Positions 25,435-27,086 of a stretch of DNA of 64,000 nucleotides are shown here, one piece after another (position 1 is the stretch's first letter; each line of letters starts with the position of its first letter). The position numbers and the translations under genes were made by a program. The stretch is from Rhodococcus sp. ARC_M5. GTDB taxonomy: Bacteria > Actinomycetota > Actinomycetes > Mycobacteriales > Mycobacteriaceae. The stretch lies in assembly GCF_022810405.1 (NCBI RefSeq), contig NZ_JALGQE010000001.1, positions 248,001 to 312,000 of the forward strand, read 5' to 3'. A model generated the notes under the pieces. The model saw only the letters and a program-made list of their open reading frames with translations. It ran no database searches and was not told the origin of the DNA.

Positions 25435-26337
25435 CTACCGACGCCTGGGCTTGGCCCCGGGCTTGGGCGCAGTGACCACCGATGTCACCTCCGGCACTAC
25501 CACCGGTTCTCGGTCGATGCGTCGGTAGACGAGGTGCTGCTGGGCGTAGGTCCAGATGTTGTTGCTCACCCAGTACAGCAACACCGCGACCGGAAGGACC
25601 GGCCCACCGACGAGCACGCCTGCCGGGAACACCCAGAGCACGAGCTTGTTCATGATCGCGGCCTGTGGGTTGGCGAGCGCCGCTGCGTCCTGCCGGGCGA
25701 CGGACGCCCGCGAGTTCAGGTGCGTGGCCACCGCAGCGACGATCATCAGAGGGACCGCAACGAACGCGATGCTCCACACCGACGGCACTCCCCCGAACGG
25801 ACCGAAGGCCTCGAGCACCTCCCGAGAACTGTTGACGGCAGCCGAGATCGGCGCACCGAAGAGCCGAGCGTCGAGGAAGGACTGCACATCGGCGGCGCTG
25901 AAGACGTAGTTCGCGGTGTTCGCATTCTCCTGCGCCGTCATTCCGAGATGACCGAATCCGGTTCCGGTTCGGTTGAACGAGCGCAGCACGTGTAGCAAAC
26001 CGATGAAAACCGGGCCCTGCGCCAGCAGTGGCAGGCACCCCATCAGGGGGTTGAAACCGTGTTCCTGCTGCAACTTCCGCATTTCGGTTGCCTGCCGGGC
26101 ACGGTTCCCCGAGTACTTCTTCTGTACGGCCTTGATCTGTGGTTGGAGTCTTTTCATGGCGAGCTGAGAACGAATCTGGCTGACGAACGGCTTGATCAGC
26201 AGCAAGCGCAATGTGAAGACCAGGAATATCACGGCCAAGGCCCAGGCGAACCCGTTGTCGGGGCCGAGCACGGACCCGAAGACTCTGTGCCAGAACCACA
26301 ACACCGCGGATACGGGATAGTAGACGAGATCGAGCAT
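25435..26337 (-). CDS. YidC/Oxa1-family membrane protein insertase paralogue
   Basis: Membrane insertase-like protein of 300 residues. It starts with a hydrophobic N-terminus, [17 protein letters not shown], instead of a large periplasmic domain, has the cytoplasmic coiled-coil-like loop [20 protein letters not shown], and the [16 protein letters not shown] transmembrane hallmark. The C-terminus is basic ([10 protein letters not shown]), as in insertases that touch the ribosome. The housekeeping yidC normally lies at the rpmH/rnpA locus near oriC, so this is probably a second copy. Two small related membrane proteins lie directly upstream and may be its clients or partners. ATG 26337 was chosen; an extra five-residue upstream start exists. 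Confidence 0.85.
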
Positions 26338-26400
26338 GGTGGAGCACCTCACTGTGAGAGAAGTCGGTCGGTTGGCGTCTCGACCGGATCTCGCAGTGGC

Positions 26401-26739
26401 TCAGGAGACCTGGAGCCACCGGTCCGGTCCACGGACCGGACCGGGGGCTCTGGGCATGGGGCGACCTGGCGCATCGGGTTGCTGTTGCCTGCGGAACGAT
26501 CCCCGAAGTCGCCGCCCGTCCGCGCCTGCAGCGCACGACGACAGCGGTGCGATCACGGCGAGGTCGGACGGTGCAACGAGGACGACCAGGGATGCCGCGA
26601 CGAGCGCACCGAACATAGCTATCTGTGCGGCGGGTTGGGCGTCGACGACGGCGAAGACGACGAGCAGGACGGCGAGGACGCCGACCAGCGTCCCGGCGTA
26701 GCGTCGAATTGCCAGGTGAAGGGTTCGAGAGTCGAGCAT
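26401..26739 (-). CDS. Small membrane protein with RGSFRRQ..PDAPGRP.PRAPG tail (DUF6412-like)
   Basis: A 112-residue protein with two hydrophobic segments at about residues 14-30 and 35-55, followed by a soluble tail containing LRGSFRRQQQPDAPGRPMPR. The gene 62 bp upstream encodes a second protein with almost the same tail, which argues that both are real and related. I recall such proteins (DUF6412) beside YidC homologues in actinobacteria; that name is from memory. AAGGAA lies at proper distance before ATG 26739. It is probably cotranscribed with the insertase gene 63 bp downstream. Function is unknown. Confidence 0.65.
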   Translation of the reverse strand: MLDSRTLHLAIRRYAGTLVGVLAVLLVVFAVVDAQPAAQIAMFGALVAASLVVLVAPSDLAVIAPLSSCAAGADGRRLRGSFRRQQQPDAPGRPMPRAPGPVRGPDRWLQVS

Positions 26740-26801
26740 TTTCGGTTCCTTGTCACAGCCTCGCGGACAACAGGTTGCGAAGGTGTGGGGGAACTTTCGA
26801 G

Positions 26802-27086
26802 TTACAGTGCCCCCACCAGTGCACCGGGTGCGCGGGGTTGTGGGCGGCCCGGGGCATCCGGGCGATGTTGACGCCGGAACGCACCTCGACGGTGGCGTTC
26901 CTCCGCGGCGGGGCCGACGTTCGGCAGTAGGCGCAGCAGTGCCGGCACATCGACCCGGTGCGCGAGCACCATCAGCGTTGCCAGCGCCGCGACGAGGATA
27001 AGGGCCACGTCTGCGGTTGCGGTCGGCATCGTCAGGTACAGCGACACGAGGAGCAGCGACGTGACGACCATGCTCTGGTATCTCAT
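26802..27086 (-). CDS. Second small membrane protein with RGAFRRQ..PDAPGRP.PRAPG tail (DUF6412-like)
   Basis: A 94-residue protein with two membrane segments (about 7-20 and 25-42) followed by RRGAFRRQHRPDAPGRPQPR. It is paralogous to the downstream protein mainly through this tail. GGGAGG lies upstream of ATG 27086 at good spacing. The tail is conserved more strongly than the membrane part, so the tail probably carries the function, for example contact with the YidC paralogue or the ribosome. That idea is inference. Confidence 0.65.
   Translation of the reverse strand: MRYQSMVVTSLLLVSLYLTMPTATADVALILVAALATLMVLAHRVDVPALLRLLPNVGPAAEERHRRGAFRRQHRPDAPGRPQPRAPGALVGAL

Follow-up and report, generated by a model that had tools for sequence, protein, structure and literature searches.

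The window, a 64,000-nucleotide stretch of DNA from Rhodococcus sp. ARC_M5, carries three adjacent open reading frames (ORFs), all on the minus strand, at the place where an earlier note had put them. The largest, yidC2 (25435..26337), encodes a 300-residue protein with a short basic C-terminal tail. Its product matches the YidC family PF02096 (E = 2e-42) and NCBIfam model NF002899 (480 bits) and is the second of two PF02096 matches in the genome, which bears out its description as a YidC paralog. The most likely start is the ATG at 26337 after the Shine-Dalgarno (SD) sequence GAGGTG, rather than the GTG at 26352; the SD and start region, GAGGTGCTC, occupies 26342..26350 on the minus strand. 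An arginine in the stretch VFTLRLLL, in the first membrane segment of the PF02096 domain, is aligned in 25/25 rows, and we take it to be the groove arginine of YidC/Oxa1 proteins.

Two small ORFs lie on the same strand ahead of yidC2. Copy b, here named apcA2 (26401..26739; 112 residues), is directly upstream of yidC2, and copy a, apcA1 (26802..27086; 94 residues), is one gene further. A simple Kyte-Doolittle scan finds two hydrophobic stretches and a basic tail in both products. The best hydrophobic 17-mers are residues 6 to 22 and 27 to 43 of ApcA1 and residues 16 to 32 and 40 to 56 of ApcA2, and the proline of an R-A-P motif stands at positions 87 and 99, respectively. The membrane segments thus differ in sequence, as the earlier note had remarked, but share one layout. 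A cytosolic C terminus would fit the layout of ApcA, the arrest peptide discussed below. Upstream of apcA1, the minus strand between 27127 and 30315 encodes a DUF4153 membrane protein (PF13687), a sensor kinase with HAMP, HisKA, and HATPase_c domains, and, by eye, a response-regulator-like ORF; ORF clustering places the kinase and DUF4153 genes upstream of apcA in loci L068 and L208 too.

The shared tail and the ApcA arrest sequence

Both small proteins end in the motif RG(A/S)FRRQ..PDAPGRP.PRAPG, and the pair is 44% identical over 68 residues (E = 6e-15). Both also exceed the curated Pfam cutoff of 26.9 bits for DUF6412 (PF19950), a model 30 positions long, with 35.5 bits for copy a and 30.0 bits for copy b. 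They are the only DUF6412 matches in the genome at an E value of 0.001, and with copy a as the query, the next match after the pair has an E value of 0.2. Given the shared identity, the Pfam scores, and the presence of just two matches in the genome, the tail is a real, named family rather than a chance resemblance. Pfam lists the function of DUF6412 as unknown, and a literature search for DUF6412 found no paper naming the family. Thirteen weak DUF6412 matches below the cutoff were discounted as probably due to chance.

The tail matches the arrest sequence of ApcA, a translation-arrest peptide encoded upstream of yidC2 in actinobacteria. According to excerpts of the original report (Sakiyama 2021; PMC7897499), ApcA of Rhodococcus erythropolis PR4 stalls Bacillus subtilis ribosomes, while Escherichia coli ribosomes are not stalled. 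The stalled ribosome holds Pro104 in its P site and Gly105 in its A site (R-A-P|G), and the residues important for arrest are the last seven up to the P site, except Pro101, together with L83, G85, F87, and R88 (PMC7897499, same excerpts). The window tails, RRGAFRRQHRPDAPGRPQPRAPG and LRGSFRRQQQPDAPGRPMPRAPG, align without gaps to ApcA residues 83 to 105, counted back from PRAPG. Residues G85, F87, R88, R98, P99, R102, A103, and P104 are kept in both copies, as is G105 at the A site; L83 is kept in copy b, and the arginine in its place in copy a is the only named residue that differs. The expected stall sites, positioned from published ApcA, are the R-A-P-G codons CGC GCA CCC GGT of apcA1 (26823..26834, minus) and AGA GCC CCC GGT of apcA2 (26440..26451, minus). 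Between the last hydrophobic stretch and the stall lie 44 residues in copy a and 43 in copy b. Excerpts of the published work give a criterion of more than 40 residues between the localization signal and the arrest point, so both window proteins have the spacing expected of ApcA.

Conservation of the family points the same way. Over 2,292 pairs from 70 rows, leaving out pairs with tails more than 90% alike, mean identity is 0.59 in the tail versus 0.34 in the membrane part, which is what a functional role of the tail would predict. We collected 179 apcA-like ORFs, all of which hold R-A-P, a count that partly reflects selection, since ORFs were kept only if they contained R-A-P or R-G-P. Together, sequence and context suggest that the two window proteins are ApcA. 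The tail, which the earlier note had read as a recognition element, would instead be a ribosome-arrest sequence, with published mutational support for the R. erythropolis homolog.

Other Oxa1-family complexes have small partner subunits. A comparable subunit of YidC was also considered for the window proteins; this candidate was dropped once the tail was matched to the published arrest sequence.

Association with a second YidC and with an ABC transporter

In a class sample of 246 genomes, two YidC matches occur in 64/65 genomes with a DUF6412 match and in 13/181 without one (DUF6412 at E values up to 0.001 and YidC at up to 1e-5; Fisher P = 1e-44, to be read as indicative only, because shared ancestry keeps the genomes from counting as independent events). 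When DUF6412 matches are limited to those above the curated cutoff, the figures are 56/57 and 21/189. Conversely, no DUF6412 match was found in 13/77 of the genomes that have two YidC matches, and DUF6412 is present in 1/169 genomes that do not have two. That exception, G050, has one YidC match, and its apcA-like copy precedes an ABC ATPase. Among 25 loci compared, the window included, YidC is directly downstream in 21 and is the only gene at a constant place across families; other shared gene clusters lie at scattered distances, are out-of-frame shadows of YidC, or are confined to relatives of the window. The dedicated link with the second YidC that had been proposed is therefore strongly supported.

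In a tree of YidC proteins, the DUF6412-linked members fall into two sets, a short one from Streptomyces and other families and a Nocardiaceae one (linked loci include L068, L069, L070, L074, L080, and L127, the last of these outside the tree). The short linked YidCs are 25 to 41% identical to the window YidC2 over the matched parts. Nocardiaceae YidCs beyond the near relatives of the window (L067 to L136), most of them without DUF6412, are 63 to 74% identical to it. Linked Nocardiaceae YidC2 proteins group with Nocardiaceae YidC1, and the two have in common an insertion that is missing from other aligned YidCs. The tree and the insertion would fit a replaced partner or an independent origin of YidC2 in Nocardiaceae, yet approximately unbiased (AU) tests rejected neither a single group of all 27 linked rows (p = 0.18) nor one of the 19 Nocardiaceae linked rows (p = 0.28). 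The YidC of L066 (NZ_JASHKQ010000013.1, Rhodococcus sp. IEGM 1381) sits with the relatives of the window; its taxonomy listing reads Cyanobacteriota, an oddity of labeling.

The tail also has a second setting. Among the 179 apcA-like ORFs, 153 are before or near YidC (a count that includes tandem first copies), 20 are before an ABC ATPase recognized from its Walker motif, 5 precede other genes, and 1 lies at the edge of a contig. Examples directly upstream of an ABC ATPase are found in L059:5287-7952, L194:9719-12092, and L195:9653-10708. In six genomes (G050, G437, G444, G445, G454, and G457), the only DUF6412 match is ABC linked. The earlier note had named a tail common in proteins unrelated to YidC paralogs as grounds for refutation, and the data bear this out only in part: the tail does occur away from YidC, as a recurrent arrangement and not as random use. 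A DUF6297 membrane protein follows the ABC ATPase in L059 and L194, the two loci to which Pfam confirmation was limited. Literature searches found no paper naming DUF6297 and no relevant report of arrest peptides with ABC transporters, RAPG, and actinobacteria.

Within the genus, coordinates from 37 genomes place two copies less than 500 bases apart in 19 and 2.35 to 2.36 kb apart in 4; 7 have one copy, and 7 have none. G443 and G456 have one additional match elsewhere. In the separated form, represented by L059 and L063, the gap holds an ABC ATPase and a 462-residue protein. The gap genes of L059 are PF00005 and DUF6297 (PF19814), giving the order apcA1-ABC-DUF6297-apcA2-yidC2, and in L059, L062, and L063, all relatives of the window, the counterpart of copy a lies upstream of the ABC ATPase. 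The junction between the two window copies resembles, on its left side, the apcA1/ATPase leader of L059 as far as roughly the start of the ATPase, beyond which a gapped alignment continues more weakly; on its right side, it resembles the ABC/apcA2 boundary. The best-scoring match to the L059 ATPase in the window genome is 34% identical. The simplest reading of this junction would be a deletion joining the start of the ATPase gene to apcA2. In print, excerpts mention a Streptomyces genome in which two apcA-yidC scaffolds are identical. When the main texts of two large surveys were searched by word, they yielded neither an ABC transporter nor a tandem or duplicated apcA.

Codons of the arrest motif and the yidC2 start site

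The arrest motif is unusual in its codons. Arginine of R-A-P is encoded by CGA or AGA in 92/127 distinct tails (72%), compared with 97/865 (11%) at other arginine positions of the last 30 codons. Alanine is GCA in 66/127 tails versus 38/409 at control positions, and the glycine that follows is GGA in 55/118 versus 62/352. When only tails less than 85% identical are counted, the bias is 55/81 versus 72/548 for arginine and 44/81 versus 27/251 for alanine. The arginine and alanine biases are present in Nocardiaceae, Streptomyces, other families, and ABC-linked copies (for instance, GCA in 7/15 versus 1/52 in Streptomyces and CGA or AGA in 17/25 versus 10/143 in other families); the glycine bias is absent in ABC-linked copies (1/17) and nonsignificant in other families. 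In excerpts of the ApcA report, arrest in B. subtilis was not significantly weakened by synonymous changes in the four RAPG codons (PMC7897499). Something besides the peptide thus seems to constrain the codons.

One candidate is RNA structure around the yidC2 start. According to the same excerpts, the discoverers of ApcA found that folding programs predicted no hairpin that would hide the SD downstream, and they suggested that the mechanism is a distinct one (PMC7897499). When we masked the stretch covered by the stalled ribosome in 19 Nocardiaceae loci, the predicted cost of opening the yidC2 start fell by a mean of 2.9 kcal/mol, compared with 0.6 kcal/mol for codon-shuffled controls. Five loci (L059, L062, L063, L068, and L080) showed nothing special, with the real value reached in at least a fifth of shuffles. 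The predicted partner of the SD was identified in nine loci: it is the R-A-P codons in six (L067, L069, L070 at about half, L074, L127, and L204), apcA bases further upstream in L058 and L061, and a local stretch in the window. The R-A-P codons pair with the SD 86 to 144 bases downstream, as in CGA GCA CCC with GAGGTGCTC.

A separate test used loci less than 85% identical to these first 19, where the idea arose, with one locus per 85% cluster, and controls in which the end of apcA was recoded synonymously so that the protein and codon usage were kept. Other Nocardiaceae genera gave 3.45 versus 0.37 kcal/mol (n = 12, P = 2e-4), and in 10/12 loci the real value was reached by no more than 8% of the controls. 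Rhodococcoides gave 3.56 versus 0.12 kcal/mol (n = 6, P = 0.03; 5/6 loci with at most 8% of controls), and Nocardia-like loci gave 1.70 versus 0.47 kcal/mol (n = 17, P = 0.03; 8/17 loci). The effect was slight in other families (2.03 versus 1.34 kcal/mol; n = 23, P = 0.02; 5/23 loci), nonsignificant in ABC-linked loci (2.82 versus 1.08 kcal/mol; n = 11, P = 0.10; 3/11 loci), and absent in Streptomyces (1.93 versus 1.92 kcal/mol; n = 15; 3/15 loci), where the starts of L010, L012, and L014 are doubtful. Burial of the yidC2 start by real apcA ends, beyond that by recoded controls, is thus predicted to be mainly a Nocardiaceae feature.

The direct helix between the R-A-P codons and the SD has a narrower distribution. 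A usable start was available for 132 of the 179 ORF ends, and the other 47 were set aside. Helices of at least 7 pairs were found in 18/24 Rhodococcoides loci, 9/25 loci of other Nocardiaceae genera, 4/22 Nocardia-like loci, 5/20 ABC-linked loci, 1/26 loci of other families, and 0/15 Streptomyces loci; such helices occur for 7 to 17% of other apcA stretches. When the four codons alone were recoded synonymously, p values were 0.05 or less in 10/24, 6/25, 5/22, 4/20, 2/26, and 1/15 loci of these groups, respectively. We suggest that the direct helix is mainly the Rhodococcus/Rhodococcoides form of masking. Pairing of the R-A-P codons with the SD was also considered as a rule for all ApcA and was rejected, as the long helices are concentrated in a few groups. 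A two-by-two comparison of GAGC in the codons with GCTC before the start revealed no association in any group (P = 0.1 to 1).

In the window itself, predicted masking is weak (0.7 versus 0.0 kcal/mol), and the R-A-P codons are an ordinary match to the yidC2 SD (rank 0.33). The apcA2 gene has GCC where most close relatives have GCA or GCG, and its pairing with the SD is weaker. A perfect inverted repeat at the apcA2 stall site (26419..26444, minus) is predicted to form a hairpin that begins at the stall codon. This hairpin is kept, as a prediction, in most relatives aligned. In a 14-row alignment, its pairs are mostly invariant or changed on one side, one pair has a both-side change in one row, and 2 of all 25 consensus pairs have both-side changes, so covariation is slight. 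L070, L074, and L127 have a long predicted hairpin directly before the yidC2 SD, unlike that of the window.

A regulatory model and its alternatives

We consider it highly probable that apcA1 and apcA2 encode ApcA-type monitoring leaders that arrest translation and control yidC2, and that the tandem arose through loss of ABC genes. The small proteins would be regulatory nascent chains, or monitoring substrates, whose two-helix N termini would be inserted by YidC during synthesis. Prompt insertion would exert a pull on the chain that cancels the arrest and lets the ribosome finish. When YidC is short, the tail would lodge in the exit tunnel and stop the ribosome with the proline of R-A-P in the P site and the glycine in the A site. 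With the ribosome parked there, the end of apcA2 could not fold onto the yidC2 start site, and YidC2 would be made. The ABC transporter genes once headed by apcA1 would have been lost, leaving apcA1 as an extra leader. For ApcA itself, cancellation of arrest by YidC and induction of yidC2 were still open in 2021, according to excerpts of the report (PMC7897499).

An ApcA-type arrest leader of yidC2 is an already known kind of system. In the excerpted descriptions (PMC7897499 and Fujiwara 2024, PMC10987492), ApcA of R. erythropolis PR4 is, like the window proteins, a small membrane protein encoded upstream of an actinobacterial yidC2, with a hydrophobic N terminus, a conserved C-terminal R-A-P-G arrest motif, and the same distal residues. 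At 94 and 112 residues, the window proteins also lie within the range of 80 to 200 residues taken for ApcA. The window departs from these descriptions in having two copies in series, an arrangement they do not report for ApcA, and its relatives depart from them in having one copy at the head of an ABC ATPase/DUF6297 pair. MifM, encoded upstream of yidC2/yqjG in B. subtilis, is described in excerpts as a membrane nascent chain with YidC-sensitive arrest that controls the second YidC, as proposed here. However, its arrest sequence is unrelated and outside the DUF6412 family, and its motif as given there, RIxxWIxxxxxMNxxxxDEED, is absent by eye from both small ORFs. ApdA, ApdP, and the RQH family, which are RAPP-type arrest peptides, share the R-A-P core and the stall position with the window proteins, but ApdA and ApdP have RAPP instead of RAPG, are encoded ahead of secDF, and have a signal sequence or signal anchor in place of a helical hairpin.

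The earlier note had envisaged a dedicated client or adaptor system. Its client half comes close, as the authors of ApcA describe a putative YidC monitoring substrate; its adaptor half is unsupported. Small proteins that are stable membrane partners of YidC2, docked by YidC2 through the tail, would account for the tight co-occurrence and adjacency with YidC and would have the two-helix layout typical of YidC substrates. Nevertheless, the tail matches a published arrest sequence in which the same residues are important for stalling, the membrane parts are less conserved than the tail, and the ABC-linked copies, which include the sole DUF6412 match in each of the six genomes named above, make such a partnership very improbable.

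The role of copy a and the meaning of the rare codons are more finely balanced. Copy b could be the working arrest leader and copy a a relic that stayed behind when the ABC pair was lost and that no longer has a role, an idea that we find plausible without favoring it. The resemblance of the window junction to the two L059 boundaries and the low identity of the best ATPase match in the genome are in keeping with a relic, as is the prediction that a stall on apcA1 does not open the apcA2 start (0.2 versus 2.8 for shuffles). However, copy a keeps the full tail in 11/11 named loci from L057 to L067, at least three of which are ABC linked (L059, L062, and L063), and close tandem copies in 19/37 genomes of the genus are odd for a relic. 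The rare arginine and alanine codons, for their part, might serve decoding, with slow or special tRNAs that deepen the stall, instead of base pairing at the start site. Their bias in every group, including Streptomyces and other families, where masking is not predicted, would be explained in this way, but the published synonymous changes argue against it, as does the Nocardiaceae masking, which holds with the protein and group codon usage fixed; we regard a decoding role as a serious, somewhat doubtful contender.

Returning to the monitoring leaders, we tentatively offer an extended picture that may well be wrong in part. The bases of the Nocardiaceae arrest motif would be dual, serving as codons that stall the ribosome and as RNA that buries the yidC2 start, so that the stalled ribosome lifts its own lid; a second ApcA branch would control an ABC/DUF6297 transporter; and a deletion would have fused the two branches into the double sensor of the window. 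As far as our literature searches and the excerpts that they returned show, the identity of DUF6412 with ApcA, the tandem, the ABC-linked branch, the codon bias, and the Nocardiaceae masking have not been described before.

These observations would give a function to Pfam DUF6412 and recast the idea of a client tag as a gene switch open to testing. If the result on codons and start sites holds, it fills a gap left by the discoverers of ApcA, namely, the means by which ApcA might regulate yidC2. Through the ABC-linked copies, RAPG arrest peptides would reach beyond insertase genes to a transporter, and the doubled leader may be a two-sensor arrangement provided by nature.
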